This document shows positions 24,498 to 48,510 of a stretch of DNA of 64,000 bases, piece after piece. The notes beneath the pieces are model-generated. The model saw nothing but the letters and a program-made list of their open reading frames with translations. It did not search any database and was not told the DNA's origin. The stretch covers positions 186,001 through 250,000 of the forward strand of contig JARUHJ010000001.1 in NCBI GenBank assembly GCA_029667085.1, written 5' to 3'. The stretch comes from Deltaproteobacteria bacterium IMCC39524. Its GTDB lineage: Bacteria; Desulfobacterota; Desulfuromonadia; Desulfuromonadales; BM103. Position 1 is the stretch's first letter. Every line of letters begins with the position of its first letter. A program made the position numbers and the translations under genes.

Positions 24498-25487
24498 TTA
24501 AAACTTGTGCGCAAGGTTCAGATGAACTGTGACGTCCGGTGAGGCGTTGACGTTCAGGTCTTCGCCGACCCCTATATCGAGGAGGGTCTTTTCACCCAAG
24601 GCAAGAGTGCCGCCCATGGTCAGCATAACGGCCGGATCACCCAGCTCCGTGAGGTTATTGTCATAGAGAGCTGTATGACTGTCAAGCTGGAGTTTGAGGG
24701 CCAACCACTTGAGTGGGGCCCAGCCGGCCCCGATCCAGCCATTGGCTGCATAGTCTTCGACATCATCCTCCAGGACCTCGCCATCGCCCAGCCAGCTGAC
24801 ACCAAAACCTCCCCAGAGGGCGCCTTGCCCTTTGCCCAGAGGAAAGTCGCGTTGCGCAGACAGGGCCAGGGAGATATCCCAGGCTTCGCTGCCGGTCAAC
24901 TTGTCTGCATCACCGGTTGGTGCCTTGAGCTGGGTTCGCAGGGTGTATGCCGACTGCTCGGTGGTCTTGATTTGCCAGGCAAGCTGCAGGCGTAAATCAC
25001 CGAAACCATTGGTTTCGTCCTCCAGTTCCAGATATTCCTTACCTTCCCGTGAATAAAGGTAATTCAGTTGGTCGTCTTGCAGATCATCCCGATCACCGTT
25101 GGGAAGACCGAAGAAGTTATGCCAATCACTGATAAAGCTATCCATAAAGCCTTTCGAGTGCCAGGCCCAGGGCAGGTCGATCCCCAGCTGAAGAGTGTCA
25201 CTGAGACCATAGCGCAGGCCGAGGGTTGCAATATAGGATTCACCGTCGAGTATGATGTCCTGGTTGTTGCGCGTGCTCACGGTCGCATTGCTAGCCATGT
25301 CGAAGCTGGTGTTCACAGAGGTTGCGCCGGCGGGCAGCACGTAAGGCGTTTCAGCGATTGGCAGGCCGTGGACCAGGGCTGTCGGTGAGAAATTACGGAC
25401 CTGGAACGGAGTGATCTCAAGGCTCCATGCCGGAAGTGTCGCGCTTGCTGTGACAAGGATCGAGCAGACCAGAATACGTAGAGACAA
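24498..25487 (-). CDS. DUF3187 family outer-membrane protein at the end of the gsp operon
   Basis: A 329-residue secreted protein. A signal peptide (about 1-22) ends at PAWS before LEITPFQ. The rest alternates short hydrophobic strands and charged turns, ends in VTVHLNLAHKF with a terminal phenylalanine, and so looks like an outer-membrane beta barrel. I recognise it as DUF3187 (N-terminal PFQVRNFSP, later DLQLGIDLPW). It starts one base after gspN ends, so it is the last gene of the type II secretion operon. Its role there is unknown. Confidence 0.75.
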   Translation of the reverse strand: MSLRILVCSILVTASATLPAWSLEITPFQVRNFSPTALVHGLPIAETPYVLPAGATSVNTSFDMASNATVSTRNNQDIILDGESYIATLGLRYGLSDTLQLGIDLPWAWHSKGFMDSFISDWHNFFGLPNGDRDDLQDDQLNYLYSREGKEYLELEDETNGFGDLRLQLAWQIKTTEQSAYTLRTQLKAPTGDADKLTGSEAWDISLALSAQRDFPLGKGQGALWGGFGVSWLGDGEVLEDDVEDYAANGWIGAGWAPLKWLALKLQLDSHTALYDNNLTELGDPAVMLTMGGTLALGEKTLLDIGVGEDLNVNASPDVTVHLNLAHKF

Positions 25488-25488
25488 A

Positions 25489-26382
25489 TCAACCTCCGGT
25501 TTTCAGGATAGGTTTGGCCAGGGTGCCACTCACTTTTAAAGAATAAAAACCCTCTGGCCCTTGTTTGCCAGCGAGTTCGAGCAACGAGGCGATGGCAGGA
25601 TCTGCGTTGGGCCCAGGCCGAACCTGCAGCTCAAGCTTGATGCGACTGGTCGCTGAGGTGCGACCGATGAGCAGGGTGCCGTCACCCTTGACGTCGAGAT
25701 CGCCGCCCCTGGAAGAAAGAGTATTGATTTTCATGGCTCGTCCCTGGCCATCAACCTCCAGGGTTGTTTCGCCAAAGGCGATACCCGGACTGTCCGCTTT
25801 GAAAAAATCCAGGCCACTGATTCGAACATCGCTCAACTGCAGGGAGATGGCTGTTTTCGTCTCCGGATCAAGACGTGTCGCTGCCTCAAGGTTTGCCTGA
25901 TTAAGGGTTCCTGTAATGTTCATGGCCATCGGCTTCTGCAAGGGCAGTTCGAAGCGCAGGCCCGTCGCCGTGGCGCTGATTAGCCCACTTTTCAGGATCT
26001 CCCCGGTCAGGGTGCCATTCATGAGCTCGCCCTGTAAATGCACTCCTGGGTTGCTGGATAACAATTTCGACCAGAGTGGCGAAAGACTCAACTGCTCAAT
26101 CTCCAGCGGACGGGGCAGGTGCGGCAGGTCAATCTTGACCTGGTCGGCATCAAGGCTCAACAACGGATAGAGAGAGACCTGGCGGATCTGCACCTCTGTG
26201 CCGGTCCTCGTCAATAGCTCCTGGGTGATCCGTTGCTTCAGGACATCTGCCGGGAAGAACAGATAAAAGCCTGTCAGCATGCCCAGCAAGAGCAGGCCGG
26301 CTCCTGTGATCAGGAAAAGGCTCGACCGTTGCCAGCTGCTAACGGGAGCTTTTGATTTGTGTGCTCCACCCGGAGAACTCAT
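25489..26382 (-). CDS. gspN: Type II secretion system protein GspN
   Basis: A 297-residue inner-membrane protein with one N-terminal helix (about 22-45) and a large periplasmic part rich in beta strands. Its pattern (FPADVLKQRITQELLTRTG near the start, later SLYPLLSLDADQVKIDLP) is that of the GspN/AsmA-like family. GspN occurs in only some type II systems and is dispensable in several. The start overlaps gspM by four bases (ATGA), and the DUF3187 gene follows directly. Confidence 0.82.
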   Translation of the reverse strand: MSSPGGAHKSKAPVSSWQRSSLFLITGAGLLLLGMLTGFYLFFPADVLKQRITQELLTRTGTEVQIRQVSLYPLLSLDADQVKIDLPHLPRPLEIEQLSLSPLWSKLLSSNPGVHLQGELMNGTLTGEILKSGLISATATGLRFELPLQKPMAMNITGTLNQANLEAATRLDPETKTAISLQLSDVRISGLDFFKADSPGIAFGETTLEVDGQGRAMKINTLSSRGGDLDVKGDGTLLIGRTSATSRIKLELQVRPGPNADPAIASLLELAGKQGPEGFYSLKVSGTLAKPILKTGG

Positions 26383-30305: not shown

Positions 30306-30860
30306 TTAAAATTCCCGGTAGCCATCGAAAACCTCAGTGGTTCCCGTTAGCGGCGAGACACGCAGGGTCAGCATTTCGCCGGCCCCGTCATCAAGGTGAA
30401 TGATGGTCTCTTCCACCCAGCCACTCGGATGAATGCGGGTGGTTATCTGCCCCATGGTGAACTTGCCACGTCCAGGGAGTTGCAGATCCATGAATCGAAC
30501 GTCACCTCTTAACTCCGCTTCCCGCCCCTGGTCAGGTGCATCGACCTGTTCACCGTTTGCTTCCAGAATCTGGGCACGGTAGAGGCCCTGATCCAAATCG
30601 TAGACCAAACGGTATTCGAGTCCCGATATGGCGGATTCGTTGAACAGGTATTTAATCGTGCCGCTGAGCCGTCTTGCTGAAGTACCGAGGCTGCTGGTGC
30701 CGATATTGCTGAACAGGGGGATGCTGAACACCATGAACAGGCTGATCAAAACCATCACCACCACGAGTTCAACAAGAGTGAAGCCGGCCAGTCCTCTGCC
30801 TCGAAAGGCATAATGTTTTTGCTGTTCACAGCTCATAGCGGTTAATTCGGGCAAAGGCAC
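30306..30860 (-). CDS. gspH: Type II secretion minor pseudopilin GspH
   Basis: A pseudopilin of 184 residues if started at the GTG at 30860, or 176 from the ATG at 30836. Neither has a clear ribosome-binding site, but GTG lies only 21 bases after the gspG stop. The prepilin signature is LAGFTLVELVVVMVLISLF. GspH connects the pseudopilus shaft (GspG) with the tip proteins. Confidence 0.87.
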   Translation of the reverse strand: MPLPELTAMSCEQQKHYAFRGRGLAGFTLVELVVVMVLISLFMVFSIPLFSNIGTSSLGTSARRLSGTIKYLFNESAISGLEYRLVYDLDQGLYRAQILEANGEQVDAPDQGREAELRGDVRFMDLQLPGRGKFTMGQITTRIHPSGWVEETIIHLDDGAGEMLTLRVSPLTGTTEVFDGYREF

Positions 30861-32682: not shown

Positions 32683-34383
32683 CTAAACCTCCTCCTGGGT
32701 CACGCGCAGGATTTCCTCAAGAGAGGTCACTCCTTCAAGGACTTGGGCCACGCCGGCCGAGCGCAGGCTTTGCATGCCTTGTCGCAAAGCCGCCTGCTTG
32801 ATCGTGGCTGCGTCCTTGTCCTGCAGGAGCAGCTCACGAACGGTTTCGTCGATTGGTAGCAGTTCATAGATGCCGCTGCGTCCCCAGTAGCCAATATTCA
32901 TGCAGCGCGAACATCCTCGACCCTGGTAAAATTGTGGACTGGCAGGCAGGGTGCATTCATCGCCAAGCTGATCCAGAAGTTCGGTCGGCGGCGATACGGC
33001 TTCCTTGCAGTGCGGGCAAATTTTGCGTACCAGGCGCTGGGCAAGGATACCGACGATGCTTGATGCTGCCAGAAAAGGTTCGATCCCCATTTCCACCAAC
33101 CGGGTCAGGGCTCCAGCTGCATTATTGGTGTGCAGGGTTGAAAACACCATATGGCCGGTCAGGGCCGACTGTACTGCAATCTCGGCGGTTTCTCGGTCGC
33201 GGATCTCACCGACCATGATGATGTCGGGATCCTGGCGCAGGATCGAACGCAGACCGTTAGCGAAGGTCAGGTCGATCTTCGGGTTGACCTGGATCTGGCC
33301 GACACCCGGCAGCTGGTACTCGATCGGATCTTCGACAGTGATGATGTTCTTTTCGCGACTGTTCAGGCGGGTCAGTGCCGCGTACAAAGTGGTGGTTTTA
33401 CCGGAACCGGTCGGTCCTGTGACCAGGAAAATTCCGTGATTTTTGTTGATCATCCCCTCGAACTGGTTCAACAGAGTGCTACCCAGGCCAATTTCCTCAA
33501 GGGAGAGAATGTTCGAGGTTTTGTCGAGCAGGCGCAAGACTACCCGTTCACCAAAAGCTGTTGGCAGGGTTGAAACGCGTATATCTATATCGCGTCCAGC
33601 GACCCGCACCCGGAACCGGCCATCCTGAGGCAGACGTTTTTCGGCAATGTTCAGCTGGGACATGATCTTGATGCGGGAGACGATCCCAGGGTGGGCTTTC
33701 AGCGGCGGATGGAGCACTTCATAAAGAATACCGTCGATACGATAACGGACCACAAGGTCCCGTTCGAACGGCTCAATGTGGATATCGCTGGCGCGCTCCT
33801 TGTAACCCTGGGTGATCAGGCTGTTGACAAAACGGATGATCGGCGCTTCGTCCGAAGCATCGATCAGGTCCGTTGGTTCCAGGTCGCGGACCAGGTCTCC
33901 GGCCGTCTTCTCCTCGATTTCCTCGATCACCTCGCTGGAGTCTCCGGCCTGTTTTTCATAGCCGCGATTGATGGCGCTCAAAATTTCCTCAGGAGTCGCG
34001 ACGCAGGGCTCGATATCCTCCCCGGTCAGAGTGCTCAGATCGTTGAGCGGACGGGTGTCCAAGGGGTCGGCAACGGCCACCTGCAGACGGCCGTTGAGCC
34101 TCTCCAGAGGGTAGATACGGTATTCCTTGGCAAAGCCAATCGGAATGACATCGAAAAGATCCTCGGCGGCCGATTCTTCGGCAATCGTCTCCAGGTAGGA
34201 CAGCTCGAACTGAATTGCCAGTGCCTTGGCCAGCATCACGTTGTCCAGCACTTTCAGCTTGAGGAGAATCTGACCGAGGCGCTCGCCGCTCTGCAGTTGT
34301 TCCGTCAGGGCCGCGTCAATGCGCTGCTGATCAACTTCGAAATCCTGTTGCAGTATTTCACCGATACGCCGCCAGTTATGCAT
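32683..34383 (-). CDS. gspE: Type II secretion ATPase GspE
   Basis: A 566-residue cytoplasmic ATPase. The N-terminal region (about 1-150) is of the GspE/MshEN type. The ATPase domain has Walker A GPTGSGKTTTLYAAL (about residue 325), an Asp box region (ITVEDPIEYQLPG), Walker B GEIRDRETAE, and a His box around LHTNNAAGALTRL. A four-cysteine zinc motif (CPHC and CSRC, about 455-490) is complete. GspE drives pseudopilus assembly at the inner membrane. It ends two bases before gspF. Confidence 0.97.
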   Translation of the reverse strand: MHNWRRIGEILQQDFEVDQQRIDAALTEQLQSGERLGQILLKLKVLDNVMLAKALAIQFELSYLETIAEESAAEDLFDVIPIGFAKEYRIYPLERLNGRLQVAVADPLDTRPLNDLSTLTGEDIEPCVATPEEILSAINRGYEKQAGDSSEVIEEIEEKTAGDLVRDLEPTDLIDASDEAPIIRFVNSLITQGYKERASDIHIEPFERDLVVRYRIDGILYEVLHPPLKAHPGIVSRIKIMSQLNIAEKRLPQDGRFRVRVAGRDIDIRVSTLPTAFGERVVLRLLDKTSNILSLEEIGLGSTLLNQFEGMINKNHGIFLVTGPTGSGKTTTLYAALTRLNSREKNIITVEDPIEYQLPGVGQIQVNPKIDLTFANGLRSILRQDPDIIMVGEIRDRETAEIAVQSALTGHMVFSTLHTNNAAGALTRLVEMGIEPFLAASSIVGILAQRLVRKICPHCKEAVSPPTELLDQLGDECTLPASPQFYQGRGCSRCMNIGYWGRSGIYELLPIDETVRELLLQDKDAATIKQAALRQGMQSLRSAGVAQVLEGVTSLEEILRVTQEEV

Positions 34384-37596: not shown

Positions 37597-37685
37597 GAAT
37601 TTCCATGAAGTTACGTTCATCGACCGGGCTCCCTGTCGCTCGCTCCGTGAGATCGAAAAAAGGTGCAATGAAGCCCACCTCGCGG

Positions 37686-37922
37686 TTACGCCAATATTCG
37701 AAGAAAACATGCTCTCTTGATGATCGTGAAGAGATCATTATTGTCATCGTCGTTCTCAACTCGGTCACCGAACTCCTTAAATCTATGAAGGGTAAAGAAA
37801 GCGAATCCATCGTAATTATCTTCGTTGAGACGTTTACCCCTGTGACAGACAGAACAGGCACTCGCCGCAGGGCCGGTAATCGTTGGATAAAAACTGAGAG
37901 AATAAACATTTACTCGCAGAAT
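37686..37922 (-). pseudogene. Remnant of a c-type cytochrome gene
   Basis: On the minus strand an open stretch of 78 codons without a start or signal peptide reads ..YPTITGPAASACSVCHRGKR.. and later ENDDDNN. The YPxxxGxxxSxCxxCH pattern with a following acidic D/N-rich stretch is typical of small secreted monoheme cytochromes in this group of bacteria. The heme site CSVCH is at 37856-37842. Upstream a TGA interrupts the frame and no signal peptide is found, and downstream the frame stops early. It is probably a decayed or truncated gene. It lies just upstream of gspC on the same strand. Confidence 0.5.
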
Positions 37923-38006
37923 TCAGTTAAGGTCGTGATCTGAAATTTACTGATTGGTGGTACTTAGAGACAGGATTGATAGTCGGTTTAAGGGGATAAG
38001 TTGTGC

Positions 38007-38218
38007 GCAAAAACGTCCCGAAGGTTTTTGCCTGAAACCGGCCTTGTAGCGGCCGATAACTTTAGCGATTTTGCCCTGTATTTTCAGGGCGTAAATCTGG
38101 CGTCTTTCTTCTCGGGTAAGCTACGTGTAGTGGTCCATCGTGCTCCTCTAGTCTCGGTCAGTGAAAGAAGCCATGAGACTACCGAAGCTTGTCCTTCAAA
38201 CCAAGCAACTAGAGTTGC
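38007..38218. other. Hairpin-rich intergenic stretch, possible structured RNA or element remnant
   Basis: Five perfect stem-loops follow one another: GCAAAAAC/GTTTTTGC (38007-38031), CGGCC/GGCCG (38039-38055), GCCCTG/CAGGGC (38073-38090), TAGTCTC/GAGACTA (38149-38181) and GCAACT/AGTTGC (38205-38218). No convincing gene is seen; short frames across it match nothing I know. It may be an unrecognised structured RNA or the remains of a mobile element. Confidence 0.3.
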
Positions 38219-38313
38219 ACTTACAACTTGAAGCCGGGCCTACTTTTAAAGCACAAAGAACCTGACCTGCTCCCTTCCCCTACTCTGAAGAGTGGGGGGG
38301 CGTTGACGTGAAG

Positions 38314-38346
38314 AGAAAAGGCCACCAAGGATCGACCCCTGGTGAC
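38314..38346 (-). terminator. Terminator of the riboswitch-controlled small gene
   Basis: On the minus strand GGTCACCAGG (38346-38337) and CCTTGGTGGCC (38330-38320) pair with one mismatch and one bulge, followed by TTTTCTCTT. It lies about 85 bases after the stop of the small secreted-protein gene. Confidence 0.55.
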
Positions 38347-38430
38347 CATAAGTTTACAGACTTAAAGAGCGCCCTGTTGATAGCATCAATAAGTCAATTC
38401 ATCTATCAAGAAAAAAACGTAATTGGTTCT

Positions 38431-38751
38431 TTACTTGAGTACAGAGGCCAATTCAGTAAATGACTTTTCGCAAGATTGATTGCCAAAATACCTAAACAAT
38501 TCACCACTAATCTCTTTAGTTATCCATTCATCAGCATGGTTATTGGTAATGAATCGAATTTCCTCCGATTTTGAATTAGGGTTGTAGCGTTGTTCGACCT
38601 CAATCGCATTCCCTGTATTTTCGCACTGGTAGACGAAAATACGACCCTGATCAACATTTTTGACTTTAACAAACTTCATGTAGGGTTCGCCGTAGGCCGA
38701 AATAACCGGGATAGCGATTGTCGCGATAAGAACCAAAACTATCTTCTTCAT
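38431..38751 (-). CDS. Small secreted protein of unknown function under a GEMM riboswitch
   Basis: A 106-residue protein that I do not recognise. It has a clear signal peptide (MKKIVLVLIATIAIPVISAYG, about 20 residues), two cysteines in the mature part (YQCENT and NQSCEKS) that could form a disulfide, and mostly polar beta/helix sequence. GGAGGTAAC lies directly before the ATG at 38751. Its mRNA leader contains a cyclic-dinucleotide riboswitch with a terminator, so expression probably depends on c-di-GMP or cGAMP. Its base composition is AT-richer than the surrounding genes. It is not a cytochrome. Confidence 0.75.
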   Translation of the reverse strand: MKKIVLVLIATIAIPVISAYGEPYMKFVKVKNVDQGRIFVYQCENTGNAIEVEQRYNPNSKSEEIRFITNNHADEWITKEISGELFRYFGNQSCEKSFTELASVLK

Positions 38752-38785
38752 TGTTACCTCCTATATTGTTTAACGCCCAATGACC

Positions 38786-38831
38786 CAAAAAAGATACCAC
38801 CTAAATATATGTTTTGGCAGTCCGGCTATCT
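38786..38831 (-). terminator. Expression-platform terminator of the GEMM riboswitch
   Basis: AGATAGCCG (38831-38823) can pair with TGGTATCT (38798-38791 region), with one bulged G, followed by TTTTTT. The upstream arm is part of the aptamer 3' side (GATAGCC), so aptamer folding and terminator formation exclude each other. Ligand binding should therefore switch the gene on. Confidence 0.6.
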
Positions 38832-38898
38832 CTTGTAGGAAAAGATGTGAAGACCCGTAACTTTCCGTCCCCACCTTTCGGTAGGTTTGGCTTTGTCA
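38815..38898 (-). promoter_or_regulatory. GEMM (cyclic di-GMP-I type) riboswitch aptamer
   Basis: On the minus strand the RNA reads ..AGCCAAACC, then the stem CCUACC-GAAA-GGUGGG with its GNRA tetraloop, then GGGACGGAAAG, UUACGGGUCU, and after a short P3 loop GAUAGCCGGACUGCC. These blocks match in order the conserved GEMM-I core as I recall it (GGCAAACC / GAAA / GGGACGCAAAG / ACGGGUCU / GAUAGCCGGGUUGCC). GEMM-I RNAs bind c-di-GMP, and a Geobacter variant binds 3',3'-cGAMP. It precedes the small secreted-protein gene. Confidence 0.85.
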
Positions 38899-38923
38899 AA
38901 CAAAAAAAGAACATTGTTTCTAA

Positions 38924-38951
38924 ATATTAAATGTTGAAGTTTTTAATTCAA
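38924..38951 (-). promoter_or_regulatory. Promoter of the riboswitch transcript
   Basis: On the minus strand TTGAAT (38951-38946), 16 bases, and TAATAT (38929-38924) precede the aptamer by about 30 bases. The rest of 38952-39481 is AT-rich; it contains a strong AAAGGAGGTGG motif at 39031-39041 with no start codon behind it, and nothing else I recognise. Confidence 0.5.
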
Positions 38952-39481
38952 CTTAAAAACTGCATGAAAAAATTAATTTTTGTTATATATCAAAACCTTA
39001 TGGAATTTTTTATCAGATGTTAATGCAAATAAAAGGAGGTGGTATTTATTAACACGGCCTTTAACGAAAGCAGGCTCTATCAACGCAGGAATCAATCAGT
39101 TTGACATGCCTTTCTAATTACAAAGGTTTTGAGAGAAAAAGCGACAGGCAGAACCACGCTAGATTTTGTGCGTTGCCTGGACCTCTTGTCAGATTAAGCA
39201 ACCTTTTTTCTCCTGAAAATTCGCTGGTTAACAGTCTCTCAGTTTTTTTATGTTGTTATCTTGCTCTAACGAATAATGGTGCTAAAGTTATAAAAAATTC
39301 ATCGAAACAGGGGGCTAATTCCCCGCGCCTTGATGTGTGATCTTGCAGACAGACTGTTGATACTTAGTAGCTTTTTGAGTGGTGTTTCATTTTGTGAATC
39401 ATTTTTTTGGGTCGATAATCAGTTTCACCTTCACGATTGTCGTCATGGGTTAGGCAAATCATAAGAATAGCAGGAGGTAAT

Positions 39482-40720
39482 ATGAGCGTCTGGCAAGGAT
39501 TTGTTCCGTGCATGCTCCTGGTGCCGCTGGTCCTCGGGCTGGCTTGTCCGGTTCAGGCGACCGAGATTCATGGTCGAGCAAGTACAGTCATAGAATGGTA
39601 TGACGATCCACAAGAAGACACCGCTGTTCCTCTTCACCAATACTTGCAGCTCAACCTGACCGATATCGCTGATAAGGGGTACAATTTCAGATTTTACGGG
39701 CGACTGGCCGATGACATCGAAAATGAAGTCGATGTCGACAGTCGCCTTTATTATGCCTACTTGGAGAAAAGGGACCTCTTTGATGGCCTTGATTTTCGCC
39801 TGGGTCGGCAGTTCATATCGACAACGGCCGGGGCTTCGGTAATGGATGGTCTGGATCTCGACTACACATTTCTGGAGAACTATCACGTCAAGCTTTTTGG
39901 TGGTGGTGACGTCACCGAGTACGATGCCTATGATGTCGACTCGAATGGTCTCTGGGGTCTTGAGGCCGGCGGGTTCTTCCTTGACAATGCTCTCGATGCC
40001 AATCTCTCATACATGCAGAAATGGTACGATGGTGTCTTGAGCATGGAGCTCATAGGGTTTGATGCCAGCTTTGACTGGGAAGGTAAGCTCTGGCTCTATA
40101 ATGAAACCCAGTGGGATTACCTGTCCGACCGACTCAGCTACGAACTTGTTGGCGCCAAGTATCGTTTCAATGCTCCCTGGACCTTGCGTCTCGAATATCT
40201 CTATTCCCTGCCTGTTTTCTCTTCAACCTCTATCTATTCGGTTTTTGCTGTCGAAGATTACGAAGAAGTTCTCGCCGAGGCAGTCTGGACAATGCAGCCT
40301 GGCGTGCAATCGTTCTTCCGTTACTGGCACGAGATTTACGATGAGTTTGCTGACGCCAATGTTTATGAGGCTGGAATCGAAAAACTACGCACCGGAAGAT
40401 TCTCTGGTTATATCTCCGGGGTCGTTCGTGATGATCCAGATGGCCAGGATTTGTATGGGGTCAAGCTCCGCACTGCTTATCTGTTTACCCCCAAATTTGA
40501 GGCCGGTATTGGTGCCGAAATCGACGTTATGGAGAGAGAGATCGCTTATTTCGACACTGATGATTCTGATCAGGATGAGTCGACCAATACGCGTCTCTGG
40601 GTATATGGCAGTTATGATTTTACCAAGAAACTTAGCCTGGAGGCTAAATTCGAACGCGTCGAGAGTGATCTTTGGGATTATTACAATCGCGGTCGTGTCC
40701 GCCTGAACCTGCTCTTCTGA
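39482..40720 (+). CDS. Outer-membrane beta-barrel porin of a porin-cytochrome conduit
   Basis: A 412-residue secreted protein. The start at 39482 has AGGAGGTAAT just before it. A signal peptide (about 1-27) ends VQA before TEIHGRAS. The rest shows alternating strands with aromatic girdle residues (YNFRFYGRLADD; WTLRLEYLYSLP; LWVYGSYDFTKK) and ends NRGRVRLNLLF, a typical barrel ending in phenylalanine. No heme motif is present. It starts a cluster with a periplasmic decaheme cytochrome (gap 17 bases) and a 13-heme lipoprotein. By context it should be the sheath through which cytochromes pass electrons across the outer membrane; direct homology to MtrB or OmbB was not evident to me. Confidence 0.8.
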   Translation: MSVWQGFVPCMLLVPLVLGLACPVQATEIHGRASTVIEWYDDPQEDTAVPLHQYLQLNLTDIADKGYNFRFYGRLADDIENEVDVDSRLYYAYLEKRDLFDGLDFRLGRQFISTTAGASVMDGLDLDYTFLENYHVKLFGGGDVTEYDAYDVDSNGLWGLEAGGFFLDNALDANLSYMQKWYDGVLSMELIGFDASFDWEGKLWLYNETQWDYLSDRLSYELVGAKYRFNAPWTLRLEYLYSLPVFSSTSIYSVFAVEDYEEVLAEAVWTMQPGVQSFFRYWHEIYDEFADANVYEAGIEKLRTGRFSGYISGVVRDDPDGQDLYGVKLRTAYLFTPKFEAGIGAEIDVMEREIAYFDTDDSDQDESTNTRLWVYGSYDFTKKLSLEAKFERVESDLWDYYNRGRVRLNLLF

Positions 40721-40737
40721 TAAAAAGGAGTGATTTT

Positions 40738-41583
40738 ATGACCCGCAAAGTTCTTTTGAGTCTTACGTTGATGATGGTGGGGGTCACCGTGGTTTGGGCC
40801 GGAGACTTCGATCACCAGGCTCATCTCGGCGATTATATCCCCGAGATATCCTGTGATGCCTGTCATCTTGCCGACGCCCAGTCCATTGTCCCTGATACCA
40901 AAGTCTGCCTCGATTGCCACGATAAAAACGAAGTGGCCGATGTCAATCTGAAGCAGTCCAAAACACACGGCCCTGTCTGGGCCCTGAATCATCGTGCTGA
41001 AGCTAAGGGCCGCGCGATCGATTGTGCTTCCTGTCACTCTCAGGAATATTGTTTGGAGTGCCATAAGTCGGGATTTGCAGATGAAATGGGCGAGTTTGGT
41101 AACAACATGATTAATGTCCATCGTGATGACTTCCATATGAGCCATCCGATCGCTGCGCGAACCGACCAGAACCTCTGTTCAAGTTGCCATGAAGCCCGTT
41201 TCTGTAGTGACTGTCATGATGATTGGCGCTTCAGGACTGGTGATATTGGCAGCCCCTCGCATCGTCGCAGTTTCGGACTTGGTTTTGATCAGTCTGACAT
41301 CGACGCCATTCATGCAGGAATTGAATCTTCACAATGTGATTCGTGTCACCTGCAAAGTTCAGTTGCCCCGGATTTCCATTCCTGGTCAATCGGTCATGCC
41401 CGGGAAGCCCGCAAGTCGTTGATCACTTGTCAGGCCTGTCATCCCGATGGCGATGTCTGCTTGAGTTGTCATAGCGCCAAAGGGGGGGCGGGCGGTTACA
41501 ATCCGCATCCCAAGGACTGGAGTGATTTTAAAAACAGACTGGATCGTGCGAGCAACGGCAGAACCTGCCGCAAGTGCCATTGA
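40738..41583 (+). CDS. Periplasmic decaheme c-type cytochrome
   Basis: A 281-residue protein with ten CxxCH heme sites (CDACH, CLDCH, CASCH, CLECH, CSSCH, CSDCH, CDSCH, CQACH, CLSCH, CRKCH), or about one heme per 28 residues. A signal peptide (MTRKVLLSLTLMMVGVTVVWAG) and no lipobox indicate a soluble periplasmic form. The start at 40738 has AAAAGGAG before it. The last heme site is at the very C-terminus. Dimension and heme count resemble the MtrA/OmaB-type electron carriers that plug a porin; that is inference from number and neighbours. It lies between the porin and a 13-heme lipoprotein. Confidence 0.92.
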   Translation: MTRKVLLSLTLMMVGVTVVWAGDFDHQAHLGDYIPEISCDACHLADAQSIVPDTKVCLDCHDKNEVADVNLKQSKTHGPVWALNHRAEAKGRAIDCASCHSQEYCLECHKSGFADEMGEFGNNMINVHRDDFHMSHPIAARTDQNLCSSCHEARFCSDCHDDWRFRTGDIGSPSHRRSFGLGFDQSDIDAIHAGIESSQCDSCHLQSSVAPDFHSWSIGHAREARKSLITCQACHPDGDVCLSCHSAKGGAGGYNPHPKDWSDFKNRLDRASNGRTCRKCH

Positions 41584-41633
41584 TTGCCAAGATCTTTTTT
41601 TAAGGGTTTCTACAGAGAATAGAGGAGGATGAC

Positions 41634-43946
41634 ATGCGTACGAAATGGTTGGTTTTCCTTGTTGCAACTTTGGCCGTTTCAACCCTCTGGGGATGCGGCA
41701 GTAATGGTGGGTCTGGCGGGAGTGATGTTGGTGGAGATGATCCTGCAACTGTTGATTCTGTTGGGATTCAGAACTGTTCAGTTTGCCACGAGGCATTCAA
41801 AATTGCTTGGGATGGTGAAACAAACAGGCACAACAATAACGTAACAGATAGAGATCCACGGCCTTCTAGTGTGGCTGGTCGTGAAGAGTGTGAAGTATGT
41901 CATGATCCAACTGGAGACAGTGCCAACGTTTTCCCGAGTAGGCCTGTTGTTGGTTGCGAAGGGTGCCACGGTGGTGGCAGTGCTCACCGAGGTGTTGGGC
42001 CCATCCCATACTCGTATCCTGATCCTGAGCAGTGTGCGGCATGTCATGATTCTCATTTTTCTGCGCAATCAAATATAGGAACTGCGGTTTTGGCATCGAC
42101 GCACAACAATTCGGATGACTTGCACGCCAGCCGTGCCAAATGTCAGCGCTGTCACACCAAGGAAGGTTCATTGGCCTTTTCAGGTTACACGGGTGATAAA
42201 GACGTGATGGATCAGATGGATTCTGATAACGATAATGTAACACCTTTTAACGAGGAAGATCTGAATCCAGTGACCTGTACGGCCTGCCATGATGCACATA
42301 ATGGTGCTCTTCGGGCGGATAGTTTTATTGTACGAAATGATATGAGCAACTGGGATCCCAACGGTAACATGACCGCGGACCAGTTCGATTTTTGCACTAG
42401 TTGCCATACTGTCATCAATCAGGATGGCGTTCTGATCGGTTCGGGTAATGAACTTTCAGGGTCATCTCCGGTCTTTCCGGGAACATCTGATGCACCTGCT
42501 CCCTGGACTGTTCAGACCGCACCTTTCTACCACAATACGGCGTGGTATCGGACTGCTACAACCACGCATTTCGATAACCCGGCAACCGGGCCACAGGAGT
42601 TGGATCGCAATGGCGATTTGAACCAGAATACTGCTATTGAAGGCTACGTTGTTCGCTTGACCGTTGAAGGCGAAAACAATCAGAACCCCTGCTTCGACTG
42701 CCACGGTCATGAACTACGCACCAACACCCGTCACTCCATGGATGAACCTGAGGCGGATGATAATCCGGCGGACTTTGGTTCTACCATTCACACGCAATGG
42801 GCTTCCTCGGGACATGCGGCCGGCCTCCTGAAAGAGAAGTACGCAGCAGATTCCGGCGACCGTAGCGAGGAAAATGTAGATAACGTCATGTTGGCTTTTG
42901 CCAGCGATGATTCATCTAATGGTGGCTTCACTCACTATAATTGGGACCGTACAGGGCGTGCCAGTTGCCAGATGTGTCACACCGCAACCGGTTTCATGAA
43001 CTACGCCATGGACAATTACGATGATGATGGCCCGGTTTCGCCACCTGGCTACAACGCGGCTAACAACAACTTCTCTCATCTCGCAGGTTGGACAGCTTCT
43101 CCAGGCGCCGGTTCTCCGCAGAATGAACTGCTTTACTGTTGGGGCTGCCACGACAACGCAGGTGCCGGGACGCTGCGTGTCACGGGCGCTGTTACTGCGG
43201 TTTACACTTACAATGATGAGCCCGTGGTCTTCCCGGATGCTGGCTCTTCCAACACCTGTAACGTTTGCCACTCGGGTCGCGGTAACAATGAGGACGCGTC
43301 TACCAGTAGCCGTTTCGCTGGGCACCATGCCCCCGCGGCGGCAGACCTCTACAGCGAAGATAGTCACGTGGCATATGAGTATCCAGGATTGGACTATACT
43401 AACGCGTCCTACTTTGCTCACGACATTATTGGGATTAATGCTGATACTCCGGAAACAGGTTCCGGTCCGTGTGTAAGCTGTCACATGGGTGCGGACACAA
43501 GCCACACATTCTTTGAAGTTGCTGAAAAGGATGATAATGGCTTCATTATCAACATCCCGAATCAGGCGCTTTGTGATACTTGCCACACTCCTGACGGGCA
43601 ATTTGAAATGACTCCGGCGATCCTAGAGGAGGAATCGGAAGGCTACCAGCAGGCTGGTGAGTTGTTAAATGACTACCTTAATCAAGAAAACGGTCTCACC
43701 AATTATACGGGCGCGGTCATCGACAATGATAACGCTCTAGAAAACGATCGGGGCGCTTTTCAAAACGCAAAGTTCCCAACGGACGAGCCTGGTGGTTTTA
43801 CCCACAATCGTTTTTATGTAAAGCGGGCGCTGTTTGACGGTATCGATTGGGTTGACAACGGTGTGCTCGACGGGACGATTAGTGATAACTCAGCAGGTTA
43901 CCCAGAAGCCATGAATTGGCTGGGCACAACCCGACCCACTCCTTAA
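41634..43946 (+). CDS. Thirteen-heme outer-membrane lipoprotein cytochrome
   Basis: A 770-residue protein with a lipoprotein signal ending LWGC (lipobox) and 13 CxxCH sites (CSVCH, CEVCH, CEGCH, CAACH, CQRCH, CTACH, CTSCH, CFDCH, CQMCH, CWGCH, CNVCH, CVSCH, CDTCH). The first seven are packed in the N-terminal 270 residues; the others are spread with long acidic and asparagine-rich loops between. It should be anchored to the outer membrane and face outward as the terminal electron donor of the cluster. AGAGGAGG precedes the ATG. The last 120 residues carry no heme site. Confidence 0.92.
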   Translation: MRTKWLVFLVATLAVSTLWGCGSNGGSGGSDVGGDDPATVDSVGIQNCSVCHEAFKIAWDGETNRHNNNVTDRDPRPSSVAGREECEVCHDPTGDSANVFPSRPVVGCEGCHGGGSAHRGVGPIPYSYPDPEQCAACHDSHFSAQSNIGTAVLASTHNNSDDLHASRAKCQRCHTKEGSLAFSGYTGDKDVMDQMDSDNDNVTPFNEEDLNPVTCTACHDAHNGALRADSFIVRNDMSNWDPNGNMTADQFDFCTSCHTVINQDGVLIGSGNELSGSSPVFPGTSDAPAPWTVQTAPFYHNTAWYRTATTTHFDNPATGPQELDRNGDLNQNTAIEGYVVRLTVEGENNQNPCFDCHGHELRTNTRHSMDEPEADDNPADFGSTIHTQWASSGHAAGLLKEKYAADSGDRSEENVDNVMLAFASDDSSNGGFTHYNWDRTGRASCQMCHTATGFMNYAMDNYDDDGPVSPPGYNAANNNFSHLAGWTASPGAGSPQNELLYCWGCHDNAGAGTLRVTGAVTAVYTYNDEPVVFPDAGSSNTCNVCHSGRGNNEDASTSSRFAGHHAPAAADLYSEDSHVAYEYPGLDYTNASYFAHDIIGINADTPETGSGPCVSCHMGADTSHTFFEVAEKDDNGFIINIPNQALCDTCHTPDGQFEMTPAILEEESEGYQQAGELLNDYLNQENGLTNYTGAVIDNDNALENDRGAFQNAKFPTDEPGGFTHNRFYVKRALFDGIDWVDNGVLDGTISDNSAGYPEAMNWLGTTRPTP

Positions 43947-43972
43947 ATTCGGGATATTTTTTTGATCATGTT

Positions 43973-43999
43973 AAGCCCCCGCTTAGGCGGGGGCTTTAT
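43973..43999 (+). terminator. Terminator after the cytochrome genes
   Basis: AAGCCCCCGC (43973-43982) and GCGGGGGCTT (43987-43996) form a 10-bp stem with a 4-base loop, followed by a short TTATA. It separates the three-gene conduit from the DUF4382 gene. Confidence 0.75.
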
Positions 44000-44032
44000 A
44001 GTTCTGGACAAAAGTTCTTTTTTTACACCCCA

Positions 44033-44075
44033 CAAAGAAACCAGCCCGTCAATATTGAAAAAGTTGGTTTCTTTG
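44033..44075. repeat. Perfect inverted repeat in the 750-base gap before the DUF4382 gene
   Basis: CAAAGAAACCA (44033-44043) and TGGTTTCTTTG (44065-44075) can form an 11-bp stem with a 21-base loop; no T run follows. The remaining gap to 44697 holds small dyads such as GCTCCT/AGGAGC near 44316 and CATGAGCC/GGCTCATG near 44618-44655, several CTAG sites, and no convincing gene. Confidence 0.4.
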
Positions 44076-44697
44076 ATGTGACGGTTACGGAGAACGTTGT
44101 AGCCTATTAATTTTTCTGAATCGAAACACTGAGGCATTTTAACCGATGTACCAACATGCTTTCTCTAGGTATTTAACAAACTCTTCGGGAATCAGAGTTG
44201 TTCAAGTCTGGGGGCTATAGGTGAAATGTAAGTCATCAGTCAATCCTCTTCACTCAACAGAGAATTATTTATTCGCACCCTCTGACTAGTCAGATCGACA
44301 AGCTAGCTATGCATGCTCCTGGCTAGTAGGAGCTTCCGATTGCTCAAATCTCTGGAAAGGTAAAAGTAGAGTGTCGCCGTTTTAGAAGTCGATTTGTCAA
44401 TGAGGCGTGATTTAGGACTTTCAATAGCAACTGCCTTAGTTTGTTCGCTCTTTGACAGCCCCCTTTCTCTTTGGTGCTTTTGTACTTCAGCCTAGCGTGG
44501 AACCTTGTGTTTTTCAACGACATTATCCTGCACAAAATCGTGATCACTTTGCCAGTTAGCTTGCCACTAAAGTTTCTGGTGGTAAAATTACAATTCATTC
44601 ACAAATAAACCCAAAAGCATGAGCCCAGGCGATCCTCTCTCACTGTGGCAGGCTCATGGCTGTTAAGAAACCATGATTGATTTGTCGGGAGGTGGAC

Positions 44698-45753
44698 ATG
44701 AAGACCATTCATTTCAGATTGTTGTGTGGATTACTAGTCGCCGGGGTGCCTTTTCTGCTGCTGGCTGCATGTGGTGGCGGTGGTAGCGACGGCAGCAGCA
44801 GTTCCTCATCCGTAACCTCAACTTCAGGGACCGTAAGCATCGGACTTACAGACAACCAGGTCGGCTACAATGCCGTTGTGCTGACAATCAAGGAGGTCGG
44901 AATCGTCTCCAGTAACAATGCGAAAACCTATTACAACTCCACAGATTACAACTCCACGGTCCTGGGCGATCTTCCAGCAACAGTCAATGTCCTGGATTAC
45001 CCGGGAGAGCAAACCTTTCACCTCGCTGATATCGAGGTTGACCTGCCTGAGAACGGCGACCAGGTCTGCTTCAAACAGATTCGTTTGGTCCTGGCGGCAG
45101 AAGGAGATCCGGACTGCAAAGAAGAGTTCTGTAACTACGTGGTTCTAATAGATGACCCGACCAAGCATGAGTTAAAAACACCGAGTGGACAACAATCAGG
45201 GGTCAAGATCCTGACGCCTAATGATTTTTGCATCGAAGAGGGCAACGACACGGCGAAGGTCACGATCGACTTTGATCCGGCCAAAGCCATCGTCGACAAC
45301 CCCAACAAGTATATTCTTAAACCAACTGGCATCCGCATCATCGAGGGCAGCTGGAGCACAGCGCCTGTGAGTTTTATTGACGGTTTGGTCGCTGTTCCGA
45401 CTTATAACTCAGCAGCAAGTTGCGACGAGCTTGAGACTGTGCCAGAAGTCACAGTGACCGCTTATGACCAGGGGACTACTGAACCAGCGAGTCAGACTGC
45501 GGCGCTGACAGAGGGGCCTGTGACCGGCGCAGACATATGTACCGAGTGGTGTGCGGAAGACCTCGATCCAGACAGCTGTGAGACCGCTTGTACTGGCGAT
45601 CTGTTGTCGGAATGCTACTACAGCGGCAGCTTTAAACTGCTTCTGTCAGACATGGCGACATATGATCTGGAAGCAACCTGGGAAAACTTTAGTGCGGCAT
45701 TGCCTACGGTAGAATATAACTCTACTGTATTTCTTGAGCTAACAGAGGATTAG
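44698..45753 (+). CDS. DUF4382 family lipoprotein
   Basis: A 351-residue lipoprotein. The signal peptide ends LLAAC (lipobox), followed by a glycine/serine-rich linker GGGGSDGSSSSSS. The next segment, GTVSIGLTDNQVGYNAVVLT with later IKEVGI, matches the DUF4382 fold found in surface lipoproteins. The C-terminal 90 residues contain a cysteine-rich part (ICTEWCAEDLDPDSCETACT) without heme motifs. GGGAGGTGG precedes the ATG at 44698. It lies downstream of the cytochrome cluster but behind a terminator, so it may have its own promoter. Function unknown; a surface-exposed, outer-membrane-anchored role is inferred. Confidence 0.8.
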   Translation: MKTIHFRLLCGLLVAGVPFLLLAACGGGGSDGSSSSSSVTSTSGTVSIGLTDNQVGYNAVVLTIKEVGIVSSNNAKTYYNSTDYNSTVLGDLPATVNVLDYPGEQTFHLADIEVDLPENGDQVCFKQIRLVLAAEGDPDCKEEFCNYVVLIDDPTKHELKTPSGQQSGVKILTPNDFCIEEGNDTAKVTIDFDPAKAIVDNPNKYILKPTGIRIIEGSWSTAPVSFIDGLVAVPTYNSAASCDELETVPEVTVTAYDQGTTEPASQTAALTEGPVTGADICTEWCAEDLDPDSCETACTGDLLSECYYSGSFKLLLSDMATYDLEATWENFSAALPTVEYNSTVFLELTED

Positions 45754-45846
45754 TCGCTCATATTCGTGATGCTTAAAAAAACAGACGTTCTGCGGGTTTC
45801 TCGCCGCCAGCTGAGGGTCCAGTCCCCATAGCCACAAATCACAAAA

Positions 45847-45880
45847 ACAAGCCCCGCTCATTTCAGGCGGGGCTTGTCAG
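45847..45880 (+). terminator. Terminator after the DUF4382 gene
   Basis: ACAAGCCCCGC (45847-45857) and GCGGGGCTTGT (45867-45877) form an 11-bp stem. It can serve either strand and separates this gene from the convergent gspB. Bases 45881-46027 show nothing further. Confidence 0.75.
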
Positions 45881-46027
45881 TTCTTCAGGGCGTCAACAAA
45901 TGCTCCAGCTCTTTTGTTTTGCTGGTGTGAATCACAGGATTCGATCCTGTCTTGTTCTGGATAGGCCCGAGGCAGCCGAATTGTTGCGTTCAGTTTGTCG
46001 ACTTAATATTGTCGCCGCCAATCTTAT

Positions 46028-46816
46028 CTATCGAGCACTGTGCAACTCGAAGATCTTCCCATTAAAACCAAGGATTACACCGGCTGGCGTGATTTCGACA
46101 AGCTCCAGTTCCCTGCTCACCCAATCCCCTTCACGCAGCAGGCGGTCGTTAATTCTCACAAGACTGCGGTCAGGGTCCTTGTTGTAAAAGTGCATACTCA
46201 TATTGACCGGGGCTATTCGGTTACGCAATTCGTTGGACAAGTCGGAGTAGAGGGGTAAACGTGTTGAATCTGGATTAAATGATTCATTGTTGAGCTCTTG
46301 CGGTTCCGGTTGCGCTATCACAACGGTTTCAACAGGGGCTTCTATGGTCTGAATCTTTCTGTCCGCAGTAGAAAAAATCCTTCCTGAGAGAGGGGCTGAT
46401 TGTGTGGTTGTCGGCGATCCAAGTGACCGTGGAACAGGGGCCGGTTCAACTGATATGGCTGGTTGAGGGACAGCACTTGTTGTTTCGGGGGCTGTCTTCG
46501 CGATCTCTGGTTGCAGGATTTCTGGCCTAGGGGGATTTATTGCCGTATCGGACGTCGCGACCTTCTGTGTATGGGCTGAGTTCGTCGACTGGATGACTTC
46601 CGAGGGTGACGTCTGCGATGTGTCTGTCTGAATATAATACCACCAGCCACTAAACATTATGAGAGACAGCAACCCGGACACCAGCCAGGGGAAAAGGCGG
46701 CTGCCATAAGGGCTTGCTTGCAGGGAGAGAATGCGTTTTTGCACTTTTTTTGATGGTGAGTTCTGCTGCTGTCGCTGCTGCTCAGATTTCTTAAGGGCTT
46801 CAAGGATAAAGGACAT
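46028..46816 (-). CDS. gspB: Type II secretion assembly protein GspB
   Basis: A 262-residue bitopic protein. It begins MSFILEALKKSEQQRQQQ, the strongly conserved GspB/ExeB start. A membrane helix follows (about 41-60, LFPWLVSGLLSLIMFSGWWY), then a long proline-, threonine- and alanine-rich linker. The C-terminal domain (about 185-262, LPLYSDLSNELRNRIAPVNM) is the T2SSB domain. With GspA it helps the secretin cross peptidoglycan. The ATG overlaps the gspA stop (TGATG), indicating coupling. Confidence 0.9.
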   Translation of the reverse strand: MSFILEALKKSEQQRQQQNSPSKKVQKRILSLQASPYGSRLFPWLVSGLLSLIMFSGWWYYIQTDTSQTSPSEVIQSTNSAHTQKVATSDTAINPPRPEILQPEIAKTAPETTSAVPQPAISVEPAPVPRSLGSPTTTQSAPLSGRIFSTADRKIQTIEAPVETVVIAQPEPQELNNESFNPDSTRLPLYSDLSNELRNRIAPVNMSMHFYNKDPDRSLVRINDRLLREGDWVSRELELVEITPAGVILGFNGKIFELHSAR

Positions 46817-48510
46817 CAACTCTCTCCTTGCTGTGATAGTCGGGGCCCGGGGAGTTTGCTCGCGGTATTGAGATGAATCATCGACATCGGGCCGAGAACA
46901 CCATCCGGAGTCAGTCCATTGCTGAATTGGAAGCGCTTGAAGGACCCGAGGAGTGTCCCTTCGAGGCGAACTTCATGGCCGGTGGCCTCATAGACCTCAA
47001 GTTGCTGAAGCGTCTCCGCCAACCAACTGACCGAGGCGCCTCTTTCGCCCGGCTGCAAAAGCTTTCGCTTAAACGGGGGTTGCTGCCAGAGCAAAAGATA
47101 TTCTCCAAACCAGCGTGACGTGATTGCTGAAAGGGCCAGCTCGTGCTGAGTGTTGCCGGCAATGAAAAGTGCGCTGTCCTCATTCAACCCTGATATGACG
47201 ACATGGAAAGGAGCACCCTCATCATTATAGAGCGTCAGAACCGCGGGGCGATTCATGTTACGTAAAGTCTCCAGGCTGTCCTTGCGTGCCAGGCAACCAA
47301 GATCATGTTCATTGGCATAGCTACAGTAATCGTGACGCTCAGCAGCTAAAGAGAGGCCCCACAAGCCTGCTAAGTCAGTAATCGCTTGTTCCTTGCTCTG
47401 GTCCGTGGCGAAATCCATTGGCCAGGTCATGGGGAGAGTCTCAACAGGACTGTCGATTGAATCCGAAGACGGCTCCGGAGAGCTTTCTGCGATAACTGCT
47501 GGCTGTGCTTGCAGCGGAGGGCTCGTCACGGGCGTAGCTGCAGGAGTGTCGGTGGCAGAGATTGGAGCGACTAATGTGGCAGAGGGCAGGTCGGTCTTGG
47601 CGAAAAGGGACCCCTTCAACGACCAGAAACCGAAGATGACCAGGACCAGCACAAAGGTGGCTAAACCCATGACCGGAGCCGTTATCCGATGTCTGCTTGG
47701 CTGAAGATCGCCGAGTACTTCACCGGCAGCCTGATTGAGAATCTTGCTGTCGACCTGTTGACATTCCAGCGCATAAGCCCCGAGCAGAGAACGGTCGCAG
47801 ACCAGGTTGATCAGGCGCGGAATGCCGCCTGTGAGCTGCCAAATGGTTTTATTGAGGGTGTCGGGAAAGAGTGGTCGATTGCAGCCGGCAATATTCAGGC
47901 GATGTCGAATATAGGAACCGATCTCGCCGGCATCGAGCGGGCCCAGATGGCAGCGGGCGGTGACCCGCTGCGAGAGCTGACGCATTTCCTGGCGATTGAG
48001 GATCTGCAGCAGCTCAGGTTGGCCGAGCAGTACGATCTGCAGTAACTTGTAGCGGTTTGTCTCAAGGTTGGTCAGTAGTCGCAGTTGTTCGAGAACGTCG
48101 ATGGAGAGGTTCTGAGCCTCGTCGATAATCAGGACGGTTTTGCGGCCGTGTGCATTGGCTTCGAGCAGGTAGCTGTTAAGCCGATCGACCAGCTGTTTGA
48201 TGCTGCCCTGTTCCGGCCGGGTTATATGGAGTTCGTCACAGATGGTTTCAAGCAGTTCGATGACGCTGACTTTGGGATTGAGGACGTAGGCAATCACGAC
48301 GTTCTCAGGCAGCTGCTCAAGGAGGCTTCGGCAGAGGGTCGTTTTGCCGGCCCCGACCTCTCCAGTCAGAAGGACGAAACCACCGTCACTCTTGACCCCG
48401 TATTTCAGGTGTGCAAAAGCCTCTCGATGATGCTCACTCATGTAAAGATAGAGTGGATCGGGCGCGATCGAGAAAGGGTTTTCATTGAGGCCAAAATATG
48501 ACGTATACAT
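46816..48510 (-). CDS. gspA: Type II secretion assembly ATPase GspA
   Basis: A 564-residue inner-membrane protein. Residues 1-about 270 form an AAA+ ATPase (Walker A LLTGEVGAGKTTLC, about 48-61; Walker B VLIIDEAQNLS). A membrane helix lies at about 282-303. The periplasmic part has a papain-like segment (YANEHDLGCLARKDSLETL; PFHVVISG) and a C-terminal peptidoglycan-binding domain (FSNGLTPDGVLGPMS). This is the GspA/ExeA layout, including the C39-like module. It remodels or binds the cell wall for secretin assembly. Confidence 0.92.
   Translation of the reverse strand: MYTSYFGLNENPFSIAPDPLYLYMSEHHREAFAHLKYGVKSDGGFVLLTGEVGAGKTTLCRSLLEQLPENVVIAYVLNPKVSVIELLETICDELHITRPEQGSIKQLVDRLNSYLLEANAHGRKTVLIIDEAQNLSIDVLEQLRLLTNLETNRYKLLQIVLLGQPELLQILNRQEMRQLSQRVTARCHLGPLDAGEIGSYIRHRLNIAGCNRPLFPDTLNKTIWQLTGGIPRLINLVCDRSLLGAYALECQQVDSKILNQAAGEVLGDLQPSRHRITAPVMGLATFVLVLVIFGFWSLKGSLFAKTDLPSATLVAPISATDTPAATPVTSPPLQAQPAVIAESSPEPSSDSIDSPVETLPMTWPMDFATDQSKEQAITDLAGLWGLSLAAERHDYCSYANEHDLGCLARKDSLETLRNMNRPAVLTLYNDEGAPFHVVISGLNEDSALFIAGNTQHELALSAITSRWFGEYLLLWQQPPFKRKLLQPGERGASVSWLAETLQQLEVYEATGHEVRLEGTLLGSFKRFQFSNGLTPDGVLGPMSMIHLNTASKLPGPRLSQQGES

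Follow-up and report, generated by a model that had tools for sequence, protein, structure and literature searches.

What kind of electron conduit stands between the gspC and gspB genes of a type II secretion system (T2SS) locus in Deltaproteobacteria bacterium IMCC39524, and how did it come to be there? The question arises from a 64,000-nucleotide stretch of contig JARUHJ010000001.1 (hereafter the window), which lies in contig C1 of the 3.78-Mb genome of this organism (G000). A preliminary description, made from the letters of the sequence, had pointed to genes for a barrel-like secreted protein, a decaheme periplasmic cytochrome, a 13-heme lipoprotein and a DUF4382 lipoprotein at this place, and had suggested that they may be a distinct conduit type inserted as a unit. 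Our analysis suggests, with a probability that we put at about 0.8, that the genes represent the form of an OmbB-OmaB-OmcB-like outer-membrane conduit that is typical of Desulfuromonadales, and that it was acquired as one cassette by recombination (Table 1).

The OmbB-OmaB-OmcB complex of Geobacter sulfurreducens is described as a porin together with an 8-heme periplasmic and a 12-heme outer-membrane cytochrome (PMC4589669, PMC4245776). The window displays the same gene order of porin, periplasmic cytochrome and multiheme outer-membrane cytochrome, and differs in that the periplasmic wire carries ten hemes, not eight, and the surface protein 13, not 12. A single-sequence search with the window porin in 40 genomes, its own included, gave close homologues (49-80% identical) in 20 of them, again counting its own; a porin with 78% identity is located on contig JAQYVY010000032.1, from a Desulfuromonadales metagenome-assembled genome (MAG). 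A search of 244 genomes of the class with a profile built from 18 type A porins, as we term those linked to a decaheme gene, returned matches of one tier or another in 160. The second tier (type O, linked to 8- or 9-heme genes) gave E-values of 1e-57 to 1e-70, mostly over the full length, and came from other families of the class, which we take to be Geobacterales; the third tier (type B, linked to pentaheme genes) consisted of partial matches, mainly to the N-terminal half of the porin. The 20 second-tier loci, four of which have tandem copies, provided 23 distinct porin rows after one identical copy was dropped. A complete 8- or 9-heme gene comes next in 22 of the 23, the partner being cut by a contig end in the other one, and a complete 8- to 12-heme gene is third in 21, an order which corresponds to the OmbB-OmaB-OmcB layout. 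The window porin is homologous to these type O porins over its whole length (26-33% identity) and similar to them in length, and the wires of both are homologous as well. It is through these clusters that the porin is homologous to OmbB, and the earlier remark that the barrel bears no obvious resemblance to MtrB or OmbB stands for MtrB, as detailed below, and was not supported for OmbB. Likewise, the term distinct conduit type goes too far for a homologue of OmbB-OmaB-OmcB-layout porins, even though the window porin belongs to a separate clade in which a decaheme protein replaces the octaheme one.

A periplasmic cytochrome with ten hemes, the number found in MtrA, could also point to membership in the MtrCAB family, since Shewanella MtrCAB likewise combines a porin, a ten-heme periplasmic wire and a surface multiheme lipoprotein (PMC4245776). 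However, the genome has a separate porin of the MtrB family beside a GSU2203-family decaheme cytochrome on contig C5 (L173, at about 93-95 kb; 76.5 bits, with one in-frame TGA in the aligned stretch), which is one of three PF11854 matches in the genome, all away from the window conduit. MtrB is a porin of about 28 strands. At E-values up to 1, the window porin gave no match to MtrB_PioB (PF11854) and the decaheme protein none to the MtrA/DmsE family (TIGR03508), so both belong to families other than those of their MtrCAB counterparts; MtrCAB membership is contradicted by these searches and is, in our judgement, extremely improbable. Given the porin-decaheme pair of L173, the window conduit is not the only candidate of this genome.

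In a porin tree of 73 rows made by a quick method, in which some genomes are represented repeatedly and three long branches were flagged, types A (37 rows), O (23 rows) and B (13 rows) each fall on one side of a branch, with values of 98, 98 and 100 in the Shimodaira-Hasegawa-like approximate likelihood ratio test (SH-aLRT). Types A and O are neighbouring clades, with type B as the outgroup. A C-terminal phenylalanine, which is typical of outer-membrane barrels, was found in all 37 type A and all 23 type O porins.

The periplasmic partners follow the same division. All 34 complete type A partners carry ten hemes, the complete type O partners carry eight (18 of 22) or nine (4 of 22), and the complete type B partners five (10 of 11) or four (1 of 11), with a complete partner lacking from the available DNA in three of 37, one of 23 and two of 13 rows, respectively. 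In a joint alignment the heme columns are nested: type B occupies columns 2-6, type O columns 2-6 and 8-10 (plus heme 7 in 4 of 22), and type A columns 1-10. Because heme motifs by themselves can drive profile matches, the comparisons were repeated with the motifs masked, giving probabilities of 99.9% for A against O (E-value 1.6e-36), 96.0% for A against B and 95.6% for O against B; in the single masking control, a comparison against six members of the 13-heme family, the probability dropped from 97.2% to 10.7%. The nested columns and the match retained after masking identify the window wire as the octaheme type with one N-terminal and one internal heme in addition.

An ordinary solute porin which happens to precede cytochrome genes would be in keeping with a weak Porin_4 similarity in Pfam, below the cut-off. 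Against this, a complete decaheme open reading frame (ORF) lies next to the porin in 34 of 37 type A rows and one more is cut by a contig end, and the pair co-occurs at many genomic sites across the order, usually with a gap of 10-18 bp. We consider the solute porin very unlikely, and such recurrence argues that the arrangement did not come about by chance. In L088 (G115) the 917 bp that follow a type A porin contain no intact decaheme ORF, and another cytochrome ORF comes after them; the decaheme gene may be broken there, or the sequence may be in error.

By analogy with OmbB-OmaB-OmcB, the 412-aa barrel would sheathe the decaheme wire, which would take electrons from periplasmic carriers and hand them to the 13-heme surface lipoprotein for reduction of an extracellular acceptor. 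In the 13-heme protein every CH pair belongs to a CXXCH motif, and the protein shares 22-42% local identity with the third genes of type O clusters. It has been proposed that the eight hemes of OmaB may not suffice to cross the membrane unless two hemes of OmcB contribute, and ten-heme MtrAB is reported to work without MtrC (PMC4589669). By analogy, a ten-heme wire may cross the membrane on its own; a third gene that is freely exchanged beside the conserved pair would be in keeping with this. It has, however, already been described for such conduits, octaheme ones included, that the outer-surface protein is replaced while the porin and the periplasmic cytochrome are conserved (PMC6148476).

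Having ten hemes where OmaB has eight, the window conduit is best placed in a group neighbouring OmbB-OmaB-OmcB proper, within the wider porin-cytochrome (Pcc) kind, for which 5-14 hemes in the periplasmic partner are given (PMC4245776); as in that kind, a porin-like protein, presumably a barrel, is clustered with a periplasmic multiheme cytochrome. No ORF of at least 76 aa between gspC and the porin gene had a Pfam match above cut-off, and no regulator-like gene akin to OrfR or OrfS was found upstream. The type B conduit, which occurs at the same junction in related genomes, shares with ExtBCD and ExtEF of G. sulfurreducens the layout of porin, 5-heme lipoprotein and multiheme protein (PMC6148476), and its wire aligns with hemes 2-6 of the window decaheme. 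The window differs from such conduits in having a soluble decaheme protein instead of a pentaheme lipoprotein, the link to Ext being one of layout. Some conduit classes are treated in the same paper as having no mutual homology (PMC6148476); among our sequences, profile-level homology connects the porin and wire families of types A, O and B. OetABI of syntrophic sulfate reducers, likened here by description, also consists of a porin, a periplasmic cytochrome and a surface lipoprotein, and is reported to have spread horizontally between clades (PMC10553843). Papers on Desulfuromonas mention OmcB-type or ombB-omaB-omcB homologues (PMC8235581, PMC8465243). Among the literature matches listed, titles and abstract openings, with supplements and subscription journals outside this scope, mentioned neither conduit exchange at a gsp locus nor a ten-heme OmaB.

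How the conduit came to its place was addressed by comparison with sister genomes. The T2SS locus of G005 is closely related to that of the window (GspA 97%, GspC 89% identical), and its alignment with the window at about 88% in blastn runs up to position 37,612, 74 bp past the gspC start, where it stops. In 100-bp bins the identity is 39-43% beyond this point, varies from 0.48 to 0.91 across 44,500-46,000, with its peaks where the DUF4382 gene starts and immediately ahead of it, and reaches 0.91-1.0 from about 46,100. The 90% block average of blastn on the right flank had masked the low values, as both the MAFFT profile and a pairwise aligner gave low identity there. Between the break points G005 has a type B conduit, other genes and its own DUF4382 homologue (61%). 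The insertion as a unit proposed in the preliminary description was thus borne out, with sharp breaks at 37,613 and about 46,010 and a different conduit at the same place in a sister genome. The DUF4382 gene adjoins gspB in the four genomes G000, G005, G009 and G010, alongside conduits of type A as well as type B; its assignment to a fixed flank was ruled out by the 100-bp identity profiles, which place the gene inside the replaced segment.

A third genome, G003, has the IF-2 most similar to that of the window in the set (98% identity). At its left edge, 298 bases that extend across the window's point of departure are 90.6% identical to G005, and at its right edge 568 bases are 90.7% identical to G005. 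With the window, this right edge shares 95% identity from 46,011 on only, plus a 66% block at 45,598-45,872. As G003 follows G005 on both edges and groups as the sister of G000, the G005-like arrangement is likely the older one and the type A conduit the newcomer. On this basis, one cassette with a length of about 8.4 kb, from 37,613 to about 46,010, would have been acquired through recombination, presumably homologous, in the conserved gsp genes that flank it. At this gspC-gspB junction it would probably have taken the place of a conduit region of another kind, the pentaheme type.

The trees of the conduit and of its flanks are in conflict. The G000 porin groups with those of G010, G014 and G013, whereas its GspC-D-E sequences group with G003, G005, G001, G002, G017, G012 and G011. 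Forcing G000, G010, G013 and G014 together on GspC-D-E was rejected by the approximately unbiased (AU) test (p-AU 2.9e-8), for a group picked after the trees had been viewed and with G010 filling 16% of the columns. G009 and G010 are sisters by both GspC-D-E and GspA-B, and yet they hold different conduits, a type A conduit 80% identical to that of the window in G010, and a 51% type A conduit plus a type B conduit in G009. The latter two stand side by side and divergent between gspC and gspB (L035), and each of them groups on the porin tree with conduits of family f5, G025 included.

Several further observations weigh against the reading of an OmbB-like conduit acquired as one cassette. Regarding the porin, an AlphaFold prediction made with two input sequences left the barrel unsupported, with a predicted local distance difference test (pLDDT) score of 25.8; type A (22) did not stand out from shuffled sequences (18.5, standard deviation 2.8) when amphipathic 9-mers were crudely counted; the C-terminal phenylalanine is absent from all 13 type B porins; and the label of OmbB clade for type O refers to layout, heme counts and tandem copies, the OmbB sequence of G. 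sulfurreducens lying outside the comparison. Two of the 37 type A rows have no adjacent decaheme, namely L038, at a contig end, and the above-mentioned L088. The third gene varies beside the conserved pair (23-37% identity, with 6-16 hemes among eight complete ones), and the lipobox-like LWGC of the 13-heme protein is unusual at position -2. As to the exchange, G003 is interrupted by contig ends at the junction, leaving two edges for comparison, many of the compared genomes are draft MAGs, and the support for G000 and G003 as sisters is moderate (92/96 in the GspC-D-E tree and 86/63 in the IF-2 tree), with the GspA-B tree pairing G000 with G005 instead (82/21). Owing to this moderate support, the direction of the swap is considered likely, not proven. 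Searches against solved structures gave no useful sequence match for the porin, either singly or as a profile, and weak matches for the cytochromes, the best one for the decaheme protein covering 47 residues of alternative complex III subunit A (E-value 2e-4).

The same junction appears to receive conduits repeatedly. We examined 16 family genomes with a gspC ORF, of which two with flanks below 300 bp were left out (a seventeenth, G021, has about 130 bp), and found a gene with at least five CXXCH motifs in 10 of the 14 usable gspC flanks, which extend up to 5 kb and in several cases less than 3 kb. In the control, such a gene occurred in 23 of 1028 overlapping 5-kb windows, all 23 from one locus; the control set, which is non-random, comprised 20 stretches (355 kb), 18 of them surrounding translation-factor homologues, one surrounding a GspA-like ATPase and one at an arbitrary place in G000, and the genomes compared are not independent of one another. 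Two explanations of the junction compete. The gspC-gspB junction may be a merely permissive recombination site in cytochrome-rich genomes, flanked by conserved genes, with the T2SS functionally unrelated to the conduits, which we hold at just under even odds. Consistent with such a site, gspA, gspB and gspC are contiguous and free of any insert in G015 and G017, the conduits of which are located on other contigs, an adjacency that the preliminary description had proposed to look for where the cluster is absent. Also, G006 has no multiheme gene in the 4.5 kb beside gspC (the remaining usable flank, that of G013, ends inside a conduit porin gene), and the conduit loci retrieved outside family f1 had no T2SS locus orthologous to that of the window alongside. 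The T2SS genes apparently have been exchanged themselves, given that G004 (L070) is 96% identical to the window genome in IF-2 and 47% in GspC, which suggests either an exchange of the gsp genes or a chimeric MAG. On the other hand, a permissive site would be expected to hold mixed cargo, and yet multiheme genes fill 10 of 14 flanks, with the above reservations on independence and on the control.

Alternatively, the cassette may be placed there since the surface cytochrome is a T2SS substrate, with co-transfer or co-regulation of exporter and cargo keeping conduits at the junction, a tentative explanation which we rate somewhat below even odds. Judging by the porin tree, several conduit lineages have reached the junction, type A on two or more occasions and type B on two or three, and export of Shewanella surface cytochromes by a T2SS has been stated (PMC7096707). 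By analogy with the latter, it is plausible that the 13-heme protein may be exported by the neighbouring T2SS, and the multiheme enrichment at the gspC flank would fit such export. Nevertheless, the export argument is one of analogy, and the type A conduits retrieved from other families are not beside this T2SS.

A more far-reaching version, which we regard as rather unlikely, is that the T2SS locus serves as a docking site, where distant decaheme- and pentaheme-wired conduits would be repeatedly captured, kept and swapped because the exporter delivers their cytochrome, with the decaheme protein spanning the membrane unaided. If this were true, a respiratory outlet could be changed by a single recombination.

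Close relatives that differ in the conduit at one locus provide a natural experiment, and the conduit classes can be ordered into one porin superfamily with wires of 5, 8, 9 or 10 hemes in register, making the number of hemes needed to cross the outer membrane and the functional pairing of secretion system and conduit testable.

Other genomes add detail on this junction and on gsp-like neighbours. The gspC and gspB ends of G001 and of G002 fall on separate contigs, and the distance between porin and gspC in G020 is about 12 kb. The second-tier locus L112 includes, within 9 kb, gsp-like or pilus-like genes that are more distant in sequence (26-42% identity), and L028 has a GspG-like gene about 9 kb away. 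A 760-aa ORF that weakly matches the porin is enclosed in L067 (G020:C75:3000-16000) by ORFs with 46 and 38 CXXCH motifs.

Table 1 Features of the gspC-gspB interval and its flanks in the window.
Feature	Position	Strand	Evidence
gspC, left flank of the exchanged segment	36645..37538	-	Pfam T2SSC 1.2e-10; NCBIfam GspC_delta 1.2e-47, above cut-off
Segment replaced relative to sister G005 (and to G003, as far as its edges show)	37613..46010		blastn and 100-bp identity profiles; right edge about 46,000-46,100
Small secreted protein, 106 aa, family unknown, inside the replaced segment	38431..38751	-	Pfam, NCBIfam: no match
c-di-GMP-I-GGC riboswitch aptamer (cyclic-dinucleotide class), upstream of the 106-aa gene	38812..38900	-	Rfam RF03167, 75 bits against a gathering score of 59
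Outer-membrane porin, 412 aa, signal peptide, C-terminal Phe (ends ...RLNLLF); type A, OmbB-like superfamily	39482..40720	+	
Decaheme periplasmic cytochrome, 282 aa, 10 CXXCH, signal peptide but no lipobox; resembles OmaB, with two additional hemes	40735..41583	+	
Probable 13-heme surface lipoprotein, 770 aa, 13 CXXCH, lipobox-like LWGC; OmcB position	41634..43946	+	
DUF4382 lipoprotein, LAAC lipobox	44698..45753	+	Pfam DUF4382 1.7e-22
gspB, right flank	46028..46819	-	Pfam T2SSB 8.5e-13
gspA, right flank	46816..48510	-	Pfam AAA_22 and GspA_C39-like

The ORF positions of the conduit genes agree with those described earlier, except that the decaheme protein is 282 aa long instead of 281. The flanks, read earlier as T2SS genes, were confirmed as such and belong to one system: gspC, gspB and gspA were named by Pfam or NCBIfam, gspD, gspE and gspN (25489-26382) by NCBIfam, and gspF, gspG, gspI, gspJ, gspK, gspL and gspM by Pfam, with a pilin-type methylation motif as the sole match at the gspH position (30306-30860). 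The segment 37400-45000 contained no repeats of at least 16 bp, the Rfam gathering matches in the window did not include a tRNA, and the searched ORFs gave neither an integrase nor a transposase; a promoter and terminator scan performed no better than on shuffled sequences. The c-di-GMP-I-GGC riboswitch is the sole Rfam gathering match in the 64 kb; 10 related gsp or conduit loci were without an equivalent, as were seven conduit loci located elsewhere. GspE (32683-34383, minus strand) has an N-terminal match to the MshE-type cyclic di-GMP-binding motif, at 34.4 bits against a cut-off of 38, a possible second cyclic-dinucleotide link at the locus. The last gene of the gsp run (24498-25487, minus strand) encodes a DUF3187 protein and is no gsp gene; its relatives, none of them T2SS genes, adjoin conduits in L023 (G026) and L059 (G017). 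A homologue of the 106-aa protein with 52% identity is located downstream of the 13-heme homologue in L021/L022.

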